DNA of 26,328 nucleotides, from positions 1-26,328 of IMG/VR virus record IMGVR_UViG_3300026278_000003. One strand, 5' to 3'. The position numbers were made by a program, and so were the translations under genes. The notes beneath the pieces are model-generated. The model saw nothing but the letters and a program-made list of their open reading frames with translations. It was not told where the DNA came from and ran no database searches. Shown piece by piece: positions 4,207 to 26,328 of this stretch (positions within the stretch are counted from its first letter, which is position 1; every line of letters begins with the position of its first letter). The stretch is from a virus.

Positions 4207-4782
4207 GTTTGCCCCTCGCCGCCTCCGCCCGCAAACCCTCGCAGATCATCTCGATGCCGGCGGCGCAGAACACCTCGTCCCACGTCCAACCCTCGCGCAG
4301 CAGCACCGTCGGCAGCCTCCCGGTGGCTCTCAAACAGTGCCAGCAGAGCTCGAGCCATCCGGGCCGCTCTCGGATAAAGGGTCCGCCGCCACCGCCGCGG
4401 CGGGCGCCGGAATCTCGGGATCTGCCAGCCCGACCGCCATCAGCGACGCGCCCACCAGCGCCAGAAACAGCACGCCGTGGTTCACCGCCAGCTGCGCCAC
4501 GTCCGTCTCGTCCAGCTGGGGCTGCCCCTCCTCGGTCTGCAGGCACCGGTGGACGAGGAGGATCTGCCCGACCGTTTTCAGGTCGAACTCCGCCTCGTCC
4601 TGCAAAAACGCCTTGTAATGATGAGCCCGCAGCTGTTTCTCCGGGTCGGGCAGATACACCGTCGAGCCGATCAGCCTCGCGTCCGGCCGCCCGCGCACCG
4701 TGTAGACCTCGCCCTGATACTCAACTGGAATCTCCCGCCACGTCGGAGGGTTGCTGAGCAATCGTTCGAACTTGTTCGCCAT
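4199..4782 (-). CDS. Tail assembly chaperone, -1 frameshift product (gpGT-like)
   Basis: The predicted fusion reads residues 1-136 in the frame starting at 4782, slips back one base at 4375-4381, and continues for 58 residues in the -1 frame (IRERPGWLELCWHC at the junction, GLRAEAARGKHG at the end), giving about 194 residues and ending at TAA 4201-4199. The extension has no plausible start of its own: the upstream part of its frame is arginine/glycine-rich shadow. The extension keeps ordinary protein composition (Trp, Leu, Glu, Cys) right up to the stop, which overlaps the tape measure start by eight bases. The role by analogy with lambda gpGT is to bind the tape measure through the T domain while the G domain recruits tube protein. 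Confidence 0.8.
4330..4782 (-). CDS. Tail assembly chaperone, short form (gpG-like)
   Basis: A 150-residue protein from the ATG at 4782, with AGGGGG upstream at good spacing. The N-terminal two-thirds (LPDPEKQLRAHHYKAFLQDE and following) is the folded part; the tail from about 120 is Ala/Pro/Ser-rich and low complexity. It sits between the tail tube candidate and the tape measure, the fixed place for tail assembly chaperones of long-tailed phages, which coat the tape measure until the tube polymerises. A heptanucleotide shift site near its end lets a share of ribosomes continue in the -1 frame to give the longer product. The family name is inferred from gene order and the frameshift, not from strong sequence recognition. 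Confidence 0.82.
   Translation of the reverse strand: MANKFERLLSNPPTWREIPVEYQGEVYTVRGRPDARLIGSTVYLPDPEKQLRAHHYKAFLQDEAEFDLKTVGQILLVHRCLQTEEGQPQLDETDVAQLAVNHGVLFLALVGASLMAVGLADPEIPAPAAAVAADPLSESGPDGSSSAGTV
4375..4381 (-). promoter_or_regulatory. Programmed -1 ribosomal frameshift site CCCTTTA
   Basis: Read on the minus strand the zero-frame codons are gac-cct-tta-tcc. The heptamer C-CCT-TTA fits the X-XXY-YYZ slippery rule exactly; after the slip the P- and A-site tRNAs would pair with CCC and TTT. The new frame is open for 58 codons into the start of the tape measure gene. A possible weak stem (AGAGC with GCTCT) lies just downstream. I see no strong pseudoknot. Confidence 0.8.
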
Positions 4783-4798
4783 GCCTGTCCCCCTACTC

Positions 4799-5254
4799 CT
4801 ACGGCACCGCCGCCGTCACGGTGAGGTCGCTGCCGTACGGCACCAGACGAAACGAGAGCGTGCTGGGCGAGTCGTGGATGAACTCGAAGTCCTCCACCAA
4901 GCCGTACCCCTGCACGCCTCCCGCCGCCGCTGTTGCGACGAACTTCACCACCACCCCTCCGATGCCGATCAGCTCAGATAACGGCTGAGATTTCGTCCCT
5001 GTCGTACCGATCGGCTTCTCGAGTTTCGTCTCTACGCTGATTTCCCAACTCAACTTCTTCGTTCGCTGCAACTCGAACGCGTCCTGCGCAGCGGAGTGGT
5101 CTTCCGTCCGGCGGTACATTCGCACGCGGCACCGATCCACCTTGAACGTCACCGCCGATCCGGTCACCGTCCGGACGGCGTTGCCGTCGTCGCCTGAGTT
5201 GGTCTGCTGGATCGAGAACGTCGCCCCGTCCAAAACGAGATTCTGTGCAACCAT
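4799..5254 (-). CDS. Major tail tube protein candidate
   Basis: A 151-residue protein from the ATG at 5254. A GTG at 5266 in the same frame would add four residues, and neither start has a clear Shine-Dalgarno site, so the exact start is open. The sequence is beta-rich with alternating hydrophobic residues (VTFKVDRCRVRMYRR, LSWEISVETKLEKPIG) and ends with a strand-rich segment, consistent with a tail tube fold. It lies directly upstream of the chaperone pair, where the major tail protein gene normally is. Expected role: hexameric rings stacked into the tail tube. The call comes mainly from gene order and size. Confidence 0.65.
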   Translation of the reverse strand: MVAQNLVLDGATFSIQQTNSGDDGNAVRTVTGSAVTFKVDRCRVRMYRRTEDHSAAQDAFELQRTKKLSWEISVETKLEKPIGTTGTKSQPLSELIGIGGVVVKFVATAAAGGVQGYGLVEDFEFIHDSPSTLSFRLVPYGSDLTVTAAVP

Positions 5255-5284
5255 GACGGATAACACGCGTGGGCGCCGGCTGCG

Positions 5285-8200
5285 TCAACCCGTCGACCAC
5301 GTCTTGCCGAAATCTCCTGACACCCGGCGCTCCACTGTCCCACCGTTGTCGAACACGAAATTCAACCTCCCGCGGGCCTCCGCCGCAACCTCCAAGCCTG
5401 CGCGCCCCTCGGGCGCCGTCACGATCGGCCCCACGTACGAGAACGTCGCCCCCCTGTCGGCAGACTTGTACAAACGGTGCGCCCCGTCTCGCCACAACGA
5501 CACGTAGATCAACCCGCTGCGTGCGCACACCGCAACCGCTGGGTTCGTCCCTGTACCTATCGCCACCGCCGTGCTCCAACTGTGCCCATAACTCGTCGAC
5601 CTCCGCGCATAAACCGTCGAATCCGCCTCATAACCGACTAGGACCTCCCCGTCCGAACCGCAGCAGCACTGGGCCCGCTGGCCCGTCGCAACGCTGAACA
5701 CAGCGACGCCCCCGGCCCTATCCCACCGTGCCAGCTCCACCTGTCCGTCGTGCGACCACGCCGCATACACATGCCCCGTCCGCTCGCACCGGCACGCGTG
5801 AACCTCGCCCGCCGCCAAAGCCGAATGCGGCGAAAACACCCAGCCCCACCAAGGCCGCACCGACGCGATCGACGCGCCCCGCAGCCGCACCTTGAACCCC
5901 GCCTCCGAGTTATCCACCGCGTGCCGGTGGAACCGCACCGTCCATCCCGCCAGCGCGCGCGAGCCGTCGAGCCAATCCGTCCCTGCGTCCGTTCGCAGCT
6001 CGGCCGCGTCCTGCGTCGGCCAGACGAGCCACCTAGGCTCGCACGCTGCATCGATTTGTCGCTGCACCCACGCCCCCGCCTCGTCCTGCAACGGAAACTG
6101 GCAGAGCGCCGGAACCTCGCGCAGCTCGTTGACCAGCGCGAGGTCCGGGCAGGGCCTGCCCGAAACGCGCCGCAGCCAGGCGCGCGTCTGCAACCTCGCG
6201 TCCGCCCGCGTCTGCCCTTCGATCGCGTCGAACAGCGCCGCCAGGCGCGCGTCCAAACCGTCCAACCGGTCGGCGCCCTCGAACATTTCGCGCGCCTCGC
6301 ATAGCAAATCCAGAGCCGTCGGCCGGTGCAGCGCGTCGGGAACCGCAACGGGCGTCTGCCGAACCTGCTCCGTCGAGGCGTCCCACCAGTCCCGTCCTCC
6401 GAGCCGAACGCACGGCCCGTCCGGCCACACCGAGGCCCACATGCCCTGCGTCTCGACAAACACGCTCGGCGCGCTGCCGGACCGATGGAAAACCGGCGTC
6501 TGCAAATCGACGCTCCCCGTCGGGTTCGCCGGCACAATCTCGAACCGCAGAACGGCGTGCTGGCGGCCCGTCCCCAGTGCGAACCCCGCGCTCCGCTCCG
6601 GATCCGCCATATAGGCCGACGAGACGCCCCCAGGCGCCAAATCGGCCCCCGTGTCCGAAACGATCCCCGCGCCCCCGTCTCTCGCCCACGATCCCGCGTA
6701 TGTCGACGAGGCCGTTTGCGGAACCGCCAGCGGAGAACTAGGCGGCGTCTGGCTGCGGTGCAGCTCGGCCGCCGTCCCGTCCGCACCGACCAGCAACACA
6801 CGCACCTCCGTCACCTGCGCCGCTGGCCAGTCGAGACCGATCTGCACGGCCTGGAACGGATACAACCACCGCTGCCCCGAGAACCGATCCATGTCCAGCT
6901 CGGCGACCCGCAGCCCCTGGTTCGATCCGTCGTAGCCGACGGTCACCGTCGTGCCGGAAAACGAGAGCGAGCATCCCGTCCCCGACCATGCGCCCGAACC
7001 CGCAGCGTCGTGCCTAACCGACGCCGGCGGCTCCGGCCGCAGAACCGCCGGGCGGCAAACCCCCACCCAGTGCGAGCGCGAGCCGGCGACGTACTGCGCC
7101 TCGAAAAACCCGCTCAGAAAGCCATCGACGCACGCGGCCGTCAGAGTTGTGCGCGTGCGCCGGCGCTCCGACTCCGGCAGAGACGGATGGTAGAGCCATT
7201 GCACGCGCAGCGGAACCCAATAATCGTCGCTGGACACTCGAGAGCCGTCCACGGGCCACTCCCACGGTTGCAGATCCCCCGACGCAGGCGCAGGAAACCA
7301 ATAGCCGTAGCTCCAGTGCGGATTCGCCCACGTGTTGATGTAGCAGGCGACCTCGTCCGAATGGTCCAGGTAGTCCAGCACGGGCCCGCGGTCCGTCAGC
7401 ACCGGATACGAACCAGAACGCGCTGTGAAGCACATCGACGGCCACGGCGCGATCGACGAGATCGACGACGACAGCGAATATGGGCATTTGACCGTCTGCG
7501 ACAACACGTCCTCGATCGCATGCGTTAGGCGCCCCCCCGGGTTGTTCGGGTCGGCCTCCCACGCCACCGTCGACAGCATCTCGGACATCGCCGGAAGCCG
7601 CTCGGTGTCTACGGTCTCGTCGCACACCGTCACCGGCGTCATGTACGCCGCACACGCCGTGCCGGTCGATATGCCGCGCGCGACGGCCCTCGGAAAGCCT
7701 CCTCGAACCCACAGCGCGGCGTACTCGTCGTTCTCCAGATCGAACCGGCGCGGCACGCTCGGCAGCAGCGTCACCGAGCAATAGCGGTTCCAGCCGCTGA
7801 ACGTCGATCCGCCGGTCCCTCCCCTGTGGGCCGACACCGAGCCGTCCCATGTCGTGGTCGCCGATGGGATGTCCAACGTCGGAATCGTGCACTGGCAGTC
7901 CTGCGGCGCAGGCGGCGACACCACCGTGCAACTGACGGGGAGCTCAACCCATGGCGCGTCGGCCGCCGGCCGAAACCGCCACCCGCCAGAACCGGCAACG
8001 GAGTGCGGCCCGACGCTTGGATACGTGCCCGTCGAACCCGGCTCGATCGAGCACACGGGCGGCTCGGCAGGCATCAACGACAGGCACTCCGCAGCCAGCG
8101 TCGCCGGAATGCCGAACAGCGGCACGCCGGCCGGCGCGATGTAGCCGCATGTGGTCGGGCTCGAATAAACGCCGGCGCCCGTCGACCACGCCTGCGCGCC

Positions 8201-23682: not shown

Positions 23683-24027
23683 CTACTCTGGTTTGTGAAC
23701 GTTTTTTGACGATTGGTCATGAAACATTGACTGTTCGCCGCCTTCGGAGGTATTCTTAAGACCTCCTGTGACGGCTACGCCGTCGTGTTCCCCAGCCCCC
23801 TCGAAAGCGGTTGGGGCTGCCCGGCTCAGACGCTTCGGCAGATAGCCGAGCGGCTTCTTCAAATAGCTTCGAACCGACTCCTCAGAGCACCCGAGCTGCG
23901 CCGCGATCTGCGACTTGCTCAGCCCGAGCGCCCGCAACTGGTGCAGCCGGCCGTGCTCGCGAATGAACTCCTCCGGCGACTCCGCCGCGAATAGAGGCTT
24001 TCCTCGTTCTGCCATATAACCAATCAT
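23683..24027 (-). CDS. Small HTH protein in the Cro/early regulator position
   Basis: Up to 114 residues from ATG 24027; ATG 24015 (MAERGK) is an alternative and may be the better start, because a TATGAT box covers the first ATG and a transcript from it would begin close to the second. Residues about 30-55 form a helix-turn-helix ([20 protein letters not shown]). The C-terminal half is Gly/Ser/Glu-rich and likely disordered. It is transcribed away from the repressor and leads the minus-strand early block, so it is a Cro-like or early-gene regulator by position. It is not a recognised Cro homologue; a resolvase-type HTH or replication regulator is also possible. Confidence 0.7.
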
Positions 24028-24068: not shown

Positions 24069-24848
24069 TTGCAAAATATAGGCATGGCTGTCGGCGACAT
24101 CGGTAGGCGTGTGAGAGAAGCGCGCCTGAGTTTGGGCCCAGGTCGCATGCGCACCGTGGACCTTGCCCGGGCCGTTGGCATCTCGTCGCAACGGCTGTCC
24201 AACTACGAGACCGGTAGGAGCGATCCCCCGTACGAACTCACCGTTCAACTCGCAAACGCTCTCGGCGTCTCCCTCGACTGGCTCCTGGGCGAATCCAAGA
24301 TCATGAGGCCCAACCCCGTCATGTTCCAGCCGCCCGACCCCGACGCCGCAACCCTCGTCTCCAGAGACCACGCCCCGAAACAGGTGCGCGCCGCCGCAAC
24401 GGGCGGCACCGTCGCCCTGCCCGCCTGGCGTGGCGTGTCAGCTGGCTACGCCGACGAGATGATGTTCGAAGAACCGTCCGAGGTCACATACGAAGAGGTG
24501 CCCTTTTTCCTCGTCGAAGGCGACCCCTCAAGGTATCTGATCATCATCCCGAACGGCACCAGCCTCGCGCCCCGCATCGACATCGGAAACTGGGTCGTCA
24601 TCAAGCGGTCGACCGACATCCTGCCGAACGTGATCACGCTCGTCCGCAGCCCGGAAAACAAGCACTTCATCAAGGTCGTCAAACGCAAGGACAAGACGAT
24701 CGAACTGCATTCCATCGCCAACGGCTACCCGCCGATCGCCGTCGCCGATGGCTGGACCATCGTCGGCCATGCCGTCGCCATCTGGGACAAAGGCGCCCAA
24801 GGAGCCAAAAACATCGAATACGCAGGCGGCGCCCCGCTTAGAGCCTAG
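24069..24848 (+). CDS. CI-like repressor with S24 self-cleavage domain
   Basis: A 259-residue protein beginning at TTG 24069, preceded by GGGAGG at four bases; the ATG at 24084 has no site at normal spacing. The N-terminal XRE helix-turn-helix (about 28-75: RTVDLARAVGISSQRLSNYE, then a LGVSLDWLLGE end) binds operators. The C-terminal part is a LexA/CI-type S24 peptidase: a likely cleavage bond Ala125-Gly126 (GVSAGYA), nucleophile Ser165 (NGTSLAP) and Lys202 (FIKVVKRK), 37 residues apart as in LexA. It should maintain lysogeny and be inactivated in a RecA/SOS-dependent way. The divergent dyad is its expected binding site. Confidence 0.9.
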   Translation: MQNIGMAVGDIGRRVREARLSLGPGRMRTVDLARAVGISSQRLSNYETGRSDPPYELTVQLANALGVSLDWLLGESKIMRPNPVMFQPPDPDAATLVSRDHAPKQVRAAATGGTVALPAWRGVSAGYADEMMFEEPSEVTYEEVPFFLVEGDPSRYLIIIPNGTSLAPRIDIGNWVVIKRSTDILPNVITLVRSPENKHFIKVVKRKDKTIELHSIANGYPPIAVADGWTIVGHAVAIWDKGAQGAKNIEYAGGAPLRA

Positions 24849-24860
24849 TGAGGCAACAAA

Positions 24861-25622
24861 ATGCTCTTCAACAACCGCACGAAAACCTACGAGTACGGAT
24901 TGCGCCAGGTTCTTCAAGACAGAACGCTGACCAGCGACGAAATGAGGGATTTGTCGATCGTCGCTTCCAGATCGAACCTCTCGCCGCGAGAGGTCCACGA
25001 ATGCCATGTGCGCGTGCTTATAGAACTCGGTCAGGCGCTTCTGCAGCGGGAAGGCGTGACGAGGCAAAACTTGGCCGAGTTCGACAGACTGCTGGCTCTG
25101 CTTCAAGTCGATGCAAGCGAACTCGGGCCGGTGAGGAATGGGTTGGCGCAATACATGCTGAGATTTGCGCTCCAAGACGGCACTGCTCCGCGGCTGGATC
25201 CAGCCCAGTGGGGAGTGTTTGTCAAGCCTGGGGAAGTGGTTCACTTCTGCGCCGATGCCCGAGTCATGGAAGCCCGAGTTGTCAGGAGGCAGTTTTCTGG
25301 AGGCACCGCCGGCGTCAGCTTCCGTGTGGCAAAAGGCGTTTCCCTGCGGCTCGGAGGCATTCAAGGCTTCTCGACTCCGATCACTCAGGTGGTTCCAGTG
25401 GCTTTTGGCCGCTTAATAATGACCAACAGATCGGTTGCCCTACTGGCAGACAAGAAAGGCTTCAATGTTGAGTGGCGCAAGGTGTCCGGCTTCGAACCGT
25501 ATACCGACGGCATCCGCATATTCCTGACCACGCGATCGACCGCTCCCATGCTTCAATTCGACCATGAGCCGCTCGGAGTCTACGCCGCCGAAATCGCCAA
25601 CTTCTACTTGAACGCGCCATAG
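24861..25622 (+). CDS. TerB-like plus PH-like domain protein behind the repressor
   Basis: A 253-residue protein starting 12 bases after the repressor stop with GAGG upstream, so probably co-transcribed in the lysogen. Residues about 18-85 form a helical region (LTSDEMRDLSIVASRSNLSP, then GVTRQNLAEFDRLLALLQVD) that resembles TerB-like domains found in DnaQ-type and related proteins. Residues about 120-253 are strand-rich (FGRLIMTNRSVALLADKKGF, WRKVSGFEPYTDGIRIFLTT) and end in a helix, like bacterial PH/GRAM folds. No catalytic motif, signal peptide or membrane span is seen. Position suggests a lysogenic-conversion, exclusion or stress-sensing role. Both domain calls are by pattern and uncertain. 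Confidence 0.6.
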   Translation: MLFNNRTKTYEYGLRQVLQDRTLTSDEMRDLSIVASRSNLSPREVHECHVRVLIELGQALLQREGVTRQNLAEFDRLLALLQVDASELGPVRNGLAQYMLRFALQDGTAPRLDPAQWGVFVKPGEVVHFCADARVMEARVVRRQFSGGTAGVSFRVAKGVSLRLGGIQGFSTPITQVVPVAFGRLIMTNRSVALLADKKGFNVEWRKVSGFEPYTDGIRIFLTTRSTAPMLQFDHEPLGVYAAEIANFYLNAP

Positions 25623-25707
25623 CGCGCTGAATATGGTTCGGATTGCATTGAAATGACATTGGGAAATAGGATGGAATCGCTCTAAGAGATATTGCGAGGC
25701 GAAAAAC
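25623..25707. other. Intergenic gap before the serine protease gene
   Basis: Eighty-five bases of lower G+C content. TTGAAA-like and ATGGAA-like words appear at promoter-like spacing but are weak. GCGAGG about eight bases before the ATG is a plausible ribosome site. No terminator hairpin is evident, so read-through from the repressor transcript is possible. Confidence 0.4.
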
Positions 25708-26328
25708 ATGGAAACCACTAACATGGAAGAACAAGCAACCGCAAACCAGGTTGTCATGATGAAATTGAACGAGCTGCTCCAGATCTTCGAAGATAAGGCA
25801 GGAGCAGACATCCTGACCCTCGTTGCGCCCATGCATCCACCGGTCGACGAACTCCTTAAGAAAGCTGTCGAATCGAGAGCAAATAAACGTAAAAAACTCC
25901 TCGTGCTGATCGAAACTTTCGGCGGAAGCATCGCCCCGGTCGAAAGAATCGTCAAAGTCTTCCGCCGATATTACGACGACGTCGAATTCGTCGTCCCCGA
26001 CAAAGCCATGTCCGCCGGAACCGTGCTGGTTCTCTCTGGAGACAAAATCTATATGGACTACTTTTCGGTCTTGGGCCCAATCGATCCCCAGGTCCGAAAC
26101 GAAAATGGAAAGTACGTCCCTGCTAACGGATATCTCGCCCAATACCATCATCTTCAAAAAAGAAGCCAAAATGCAAGTCTGACAGAAGCCGAACTTGCTG
26201 TGCTTCTCAAGTTCGACCAAGCAGAAATCTATCAATACGAACAGGAAGTCCAATTGACAGTTGCCCTACTAAAAGAATGGCTGGTCAAGTATAAGTTCAA
26301 AGATTGGCGCCAAACTGAGACAAGGGGC
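25708..26328 (+). CDS. SDH-type ClpP/SppA-class serine protease, partial
   Basis: The frame opens at ATG 25708 (GCGAGG upstream) and runs off the right edge: 207 residues seen, 3' end missing. The family signature of serine dehydrogenase-like proteinases (SDH_sah, crotonase/ClpP fold) is clear: LIETFGGSIAPVERIVKVFR (68-87, the Gly-Gly oxyanion site at 72-73), then VVPDKAMSAGTVLVLSGDKI (95-114) with Ser102 as nucleophile, then VLGPIDPQ (121-128). The N-terminus (1-30) is helical, without signal peptide or membrane anchor, so it acts in the cytosol. Base composition is clearly less G+C-rich than the phage block, a sign of separate origin. It could be host flanking sequence or a phage-carried accessory gene. 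Confidence 0.85.
   Translation, partial: METTNMEEQATANQVVMMKLNELLQIFEDKAGADILTLVAPMHPPVDELLKKAVESRANKRKKLLVLIETFGGSIAPVERIVKVFRRYYDDVEFVVPDKAMSAGTVLVLSGDKIYMDYFSVLGPIDPQVRNENGKYVPANGYLAQYHHLQKRSQNASLTEAELAVLLKFDQAEIYQYEQEVQLTVALLKEWLVKYKFKDWRQTETRG

Follow-up and report, generated by a model that had tools for sequence, protein, structure and literature searches.

A rex-like slot behind a temperate phage repressor: two cargo genes, one of them the start of a putative exchangeable protease cassette

Accessory genes behind phage repressors

Genes that protect the host are among those carried by temperate phages in the slot 3' of the repressor. In phage lambda (RexA-RexB) and in the RexAB-type system of Pseudomonas putida (PMC12894663), the accessory genes are located directly 3' of the CI repressor and on the same strand. 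The immunity regions of Gifsy prophages harbor the defence genes GiPD474 and RemAIN, which vary between related prophages (PMC12724215), and BstA is an experimentally shown accessory defence gene carried by prophages (PMC8585504). The right end of the window, as the whole stretch of DNA analysed here is called (an entire IMG/VR virus record of 26,328 bases), has the arrangement of the Rex loci, with accessory genes following the repressor in the same direction. Rex systems, however, combine a DNA-binding protein with a membrane protein, whereas the cassette described below combines a ClpP-fold protease with a protein of ~68 aa and is known from sequence alone; no Rex family match was found for the window cargo in Pfam, PHROGs, NCBIfam, or PADLOC. 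GiPD474, RemAIN, and BstA are, like the window cargo, prophage accessory genes, with no similarity to it found or reported; they are defences demonstrated by experiment, in contrast to the cargo of the window, which has been read solely from its DNA.

Three plus-strand ORFs form the right end of the window:

24069..24848, plus strand: CI/LexA-type phage repressor, 259 aa, TTG start (HTH_3, 4e-10; Peptidase_S24, 6e-9; phrog_4, 5e-23)
24861..25622, plus strand: P0002, 253 aa, first cargo gene (predicted structure with pLDDT 85.2, Foldseek PH/FERM matches, repressor-adjoining relatives, partial PDC-S48 match)
25623..25707, plus strand: spacer of 85 nt between the two cargo genes
25708..26328, plus strand: P0003, N-terminal 207 aa of an SDH-type protease, its frame open at the record end (PF01972, 49.2 bits; phrog_11747, 5.8e-38; alignments)

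The label of the first gene comes from its PHROG match, phrog_4 being annotated as "transcriptional repressor", and from the Pfam HTH_3 and Peptidase_S24 domains. The ORF coordinates bear out the statement of an earlier note on this DNA that both cargo genes run in the direction of the repressor, the first of them 12 nt behind it (24849-24860). The fall in base composition that this note had also described was measured as a left-to-right drop in GC, the successive values being about 0.67, 0.60, 0.57, and 0.49. A plus-strand scan for promoters and terminators, including the 85-nt spacer, yielded no signal above shuffled expectation. The 12-nt spacer and the lack of a plus-strand terminator are compatible with read-through from the repressor gene, the presumed head of a lysogenic transcription unit. 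Since no promoter signal stands out, we can only infer expression of the cargo in the lysogen, where both genes would be co-transcribed with the repressor. The view of this region as a rex-like accessory slot is supported by SDH proteases and, independently, by P0002 relatives found behind the repressors of other phages. Close relatives of the window phage were sought through its repressor, with none found, and through RecT, which retrieved distant phages only, whose maps are uninformative for the repressor slot. At 23683-24027 on the minus strand, a small divergent ORF resembles by eye a short HTH protein and is possibly a regulator opposite the repressor.

The SDH-type protease and its small downstream partner

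The most useful finding concerns DNA past the window's end, namely a conserved cassette of a protease and a tiny protein, which is exchanged behind temperate phage repressors. The protease itself is represented in the window by P0003, whose PF01972 (SDH_protease) score of 49.2 bits exceeds the curated cut-off of 31.3. Its residues Gly72-Gly73, Ser102, and Asp126 are invariant among 68 aligned sequences. SDH in the Pfam name presumably stands for the Ser-Asp-His order of the catalytic residues, with which the conservation pattern observed here agrees. P0003 is 207 aa long as compared with about 290 in its relatives, leaving about 85-90 C-terminal residues beyond the record end. The near-invariant His of an "SHGR" motif (residue 236 of L035, a full-length relative 50% identical to P0003) and Asp255 both fall past this truncation point. 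The structure of L035 is predicted with confidence (pLDDT 94.5), and the solved structures that it matches best, the 1510-N stomatin-specific protease and ClpP, place it in the ClpP/SppA-clan fold. Being truncated and divergent, P0003 scores 56.6 bits against the NCBIfam equivalog NF047768, far under the 250-bit cut-off.

The identification of P0003 as a ClpP-fold SDH-type serine protease is sound, and its assignment to the cytosol, as proposed in the earlier note, is reasonable, neither P0002 nor P0003 having a strongly hydrophobic segment. The description of an SDH protease with intact motifs holds for the PF01972 match, the Gly-Gly pair, and Ser102; the gene is, however, incomplete, and with the conserved His beyond the record end P0003 cannot be said to have its active site intact. 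P0003 shares the Gly-Gly, Ser, and Asp residues with the SDH family Clp-fold serine proteinases (PF01972/NF047768), the name given by PGAP to the E. coli copies. What sets the phage-type copies apart from this family in general is a small partner of their own.

This partner emerged from the 29 viral and 80 genomic protease loci that were gathered, in each of which the ORF 3' of the protease was read. A partner was defined as an ORF of 45-110 aa starting -20 to +70 nt from the protease stop, the loci being made non-redundant at 80% identity. Such an ORF follows the protease in 76 of 80 non-redundant loci belonging to many phyla, with a median length of 68 aa and a median offset of 3.5 nt, while the same definition is satisfied behind 93 of 285 other long ORFs of the same loci. 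With split-half HMMs, the partner ORF adjoining the protease was recovered in 24 of 38 held-out loci for one half and in 27 of 38 for the other, and their sole match elsewhere (L062) proved to lie behind a protease with a split reading frame. The pN/pS ratios of 0.07-0.30, obtained from seven pairs of related copies after two pairs involving L019 were discarded (wrong frame), indicate that the partner ORF is under purifying selection. In 369 genomes of one class, a protease match was found in 12, and the small gene accompanies four of the five close copies and none of the distant ones. A Pfam scan of ten small partner proteins returned no family, and no DNA-binding domain, above cut-off.

A third gene adjoins the protease start in 19 loci and makes the unit one of three genes (L002, L036, L038, part of L041-L048, L050, L051, L053, L062, L065, L072, L106, and L114). 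Its product, a small basic protein ("GGLKGGKARAxxLSPEQRxEIAKKAAxARW"), occurs nowhere else in the fetched loci and belongs to no Pfam family. The protease is normally half of a two-gene cassette, with its ~68-aa partner encoded a few bases 3'. The partner gene expected for P0003 would fall past 26328, and an upstream basic-protein gene is not visible in the window. The constant gene order, the near-coupled translation, and the joint exchange described below argue for a direct action of the small protein on the protease, whether as inhibitor, adaptor, or substrate.

Repressor linkage, exchange, and possible role of the cassette

A CI/LexA-type repressor is encoded on the same strand at most 450 nt upstream of the protease in 12 of 24 viral loci, compared with none of 191 other genes of at least 100 aa in the same loci; these 12 linked loci represent about eight protease groups and are therefore not all independent. 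Linkage is a phage feature, as it is found in just one of the 80 genomic loci (L043). In E. coli lambdoid prophages, the genes are ordered cII, cro, then divergently cI, protease, a 56-aa ORF, and N, the protease cassette occupying the position of lambda rexAB. Protease DNA was detected in 17 E. coli genomes, with one copy on a prophage-bearing plasmid, and in three of these records the protease was seen to be linked to the repressor in this layout.

When phages whose repressors differ are compared at the DNA level, blocks of high identity appear that start where the repressor gene stops and finish a short way beyond the small ORF. The identity is 99.6% over 5763-7059 for L014/L016 (the L014 repressor ends at 5759 and the small ORF at 6949), 92% over 5735-6934 for L119/L120 (cI ends at 5747 and the small ORF at 6893), and 87% over 5796-7056 for L018/L019. 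From these block boundaries, the protease and small genes are seen to be swapped as one block between phages with different repressors. Conversely, one repressor can precede different genes: behind cI WP_001302016, strain LHM10-1 has the protease cassette, UPEC129 has two other genes, and O157:H7 MB9-1 has a further, different set. A DUF2335 gene comes next to a 98% identical cI in Z1323CEC0013, and an N-like gene directly follows a 92% identical cI in strain 400660, leaving the slot empty. The comparison spans filled, differently filled, and empty sites. In a set of E. coli prophages (L119, L168-L171), near-identical or identical cI genes were observed to precede the protease cassette, WP_001062368 plus DUF1828, DUF2335, or nothing. 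With such varied genes behind the same cI, the slot could be a source of further defence genes, and comparing the genes behind identical repressors offers a rule for finding more cassettes of this kind.

The protease also occurs away from the repressor, in phages L012, L013, L017, L028, and L033. In L010, L011, L013, L017, L032, and L033, the neighbours of the SDH-type protease are early genes, head genes, tail-end genes, or lysis genes. Those off the repressor slot may in some cases be structural or lytic proteases. In chromosomes, the protease and its small gene are found amid ordinary genes, and the chromosomal copies have no fixed neighbours apart from the small genes. Defence-like neighbours (single matches such as PD-Lambda-1, PDC-S11, or JetC) are a minority of 101 chromosomal neighbour genes, counted with no matched background, and a neighbourhood that is mostly ordinary with few defence-like genes neither proves nor rules out defence. 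Given these chromosomal and off-repressor copies, the protease and the small protein need not be a defence, and may serve in housekeeping proteolysis instead. A search of the open-access literature found no paper on SDH proteases as phage cargo. On plasmid pRgalIE4872c of Rhizobium gallicum (L118, 2069-6094), a P0003 relative with 53% identity is encoded alongside multiubiquitin, a ThiF-type E1, and DUF6527, a possible link of this protease with bacterial ubiquitin-like conjugation systems.

Defence is the first guess, given the published systems that reside in this slot, which are lambda and P. putida RexAB, GiPD474, and RemAIN. With about even confidence, we read the stretch as a temperate phage "rex slot", in which a repressor-led lysogenic unit has acquired its cargo genes independently and the protease would belong to an exclusion-type cassette. 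The repressor and cargo genes would be transcribed together in the lysogen, yielding a soluble Ser-Asp-His enzyme of the ClpP/SppA clan that the small, near-coupled partner would keep inactive or aim. An invading phage would alter the association of protease and partner, and the activated protease would then cut a host or phage protein, so that the invader is blocked or the infection aborted; P0002 would act apart from the protease, at the membrane surface, as a scaffold or sensor. A bolder and more tentative version is that the protease and its ~68-aa partner, sometimes with the upstream basic protein, constitute an undescribed immune module spanning phyla, which would be loaded repeatedly into the rex slot and whose ClpP-fold protease, held or targeted by the small protein, would be released on superinfection. 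The swapping of a protease and its constant tiny partner across unrelated phages makes an orphan protease family a candidate exclusion system, testable in E. coli.

The alternative that survives best, an unlikely one, is a regulator of the lysogenic switch, where the protease and its partner would tune induction by cleaving the repressor, an antirepressor, or a host regulator; the constant position behind the repressor in many phages would suit such a role, but the same cassette is found behind different repressors, and in chromosomes with no repressor nearby. Next comes a toxin-antitoxin or addiction module that would stabilise the prophage, with phage resistance as a side effect. We consider it improbable, despite the mobility of the unit, the close coupling of a small gene to an enzyme gene, and the patchy occurrence (found in 12 of 369 genomes of one class), as the small gene comes second, whereas toxin-antitoxin operons often begin with the antitoxin gene, and as the small protein has no DNA-binding domain above cut-off. 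There is a small chance that the protease belongs to the host, adjoining the prophage end, instead of being phage cargo: no gene follows it in the record, GC drops sharply, chromosomal copies are many, and in some other viral contigs the protease is likewise at the contig end. Repressor linkage in 12 viral loci argues against this, as do the lambdoid prophages, where the same slot has phage genes on both sides.

P0002 and its relation to the protease

In the rex slot with independently acquired cargo, as favoured here, P0002 is the other cargo gene. Its product has no match in Pfam, PHROGs, or NCBIfam. Residues 6-134 match positions 227-345 of the 411 positions of PDC-S48 (2.6e-10), a PADLOC profile for a phage defence candidate, and thus stay short of full length; P0002 differs from this profile by missing its N-terminal half and by possessing a PH-like domain. 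The profile itself matches in all 274 genomes via its N-terminal part, and these matches are uninformative. The P0002 model (pLDDT 85.2) comprises a five-helix N-domain and a PH-like beta barrel (strands 127-233) closed by a C-terminal capping helix (238-250). Foldseek returned PH, FERM, and one bacterial PH domain, with modest E-values and poor whole-chain superposition. The earlier note had described a TerB-like domain joined to a PH/GRAM-like one. The model and the Foldseek matches agree with the second part, the C-domain being predicted as PH/GRAM-like; a TerB-like N-domain is weakly supported, since P0002 has no Pfam match to TerB (PF05099) above cut-off and a Moraxella relative reaches 20.9 bits, under the cut-off of 24.4.

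A search for relatives of P0002 yielded 13 viral loci as well as phages of Bordetella avium. Two loci (L128 and L129) match the layout of the window, with an S24 repressor followed after 21 nt by a full-length P0002 relative, one more gene, and an integrase, and in L137 an HTH repressor is followed after 42 nt by the relative and a recombinase. Other ORFs lie between the repressor and the P0002 relative in L135 and the Bordetella phages, whereas L138-L140 have the relative transcribed divergently from an HTH gene. Eight relatives keep the PH-like domain, but their helical N-domain is replaced by hydrophobic segments. Transmembrane segments at this position suggest that P0002 is located at the membrane surface, where it probably acts as a scaffold or sensor and forms a separate one-gene element. 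Chromosomal searches for the P0002 family gave 0/369 genomes, in a search run without positive control, and 2/289.

Apart from the window, no protease locus among those fetched has a P0002-family gene, and no P0002-family locus has the protease. The earlier note had proposed that the two genes could act as a sensor and protease pair, to be looked for beside other phage repressors and to be given up if they did not co-occur elsewhere. Both families are indeed present beside such repressors, separately and never jointly, and the constant partner of the protease is the small downstream gene. A single two-component exclusion system, with P0002 as sensor and the protease as effector, is very improbable: the genes are adjacent, on one strand, and both behind the repressor, and each family recurs in that slot, but they share no locus elsewhere, are separated by 85 nt, and differ in GC, and the protease has another constant partner. 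P0002 and the protease are most likely two separate lysogeny cargo genes of one slot. A different setting was observed in L130 and L131, where P0002-like, membrane-anchored PH-like proteins are encoded at about 4600-5417, inside a tail operon of Mu-like appearance.
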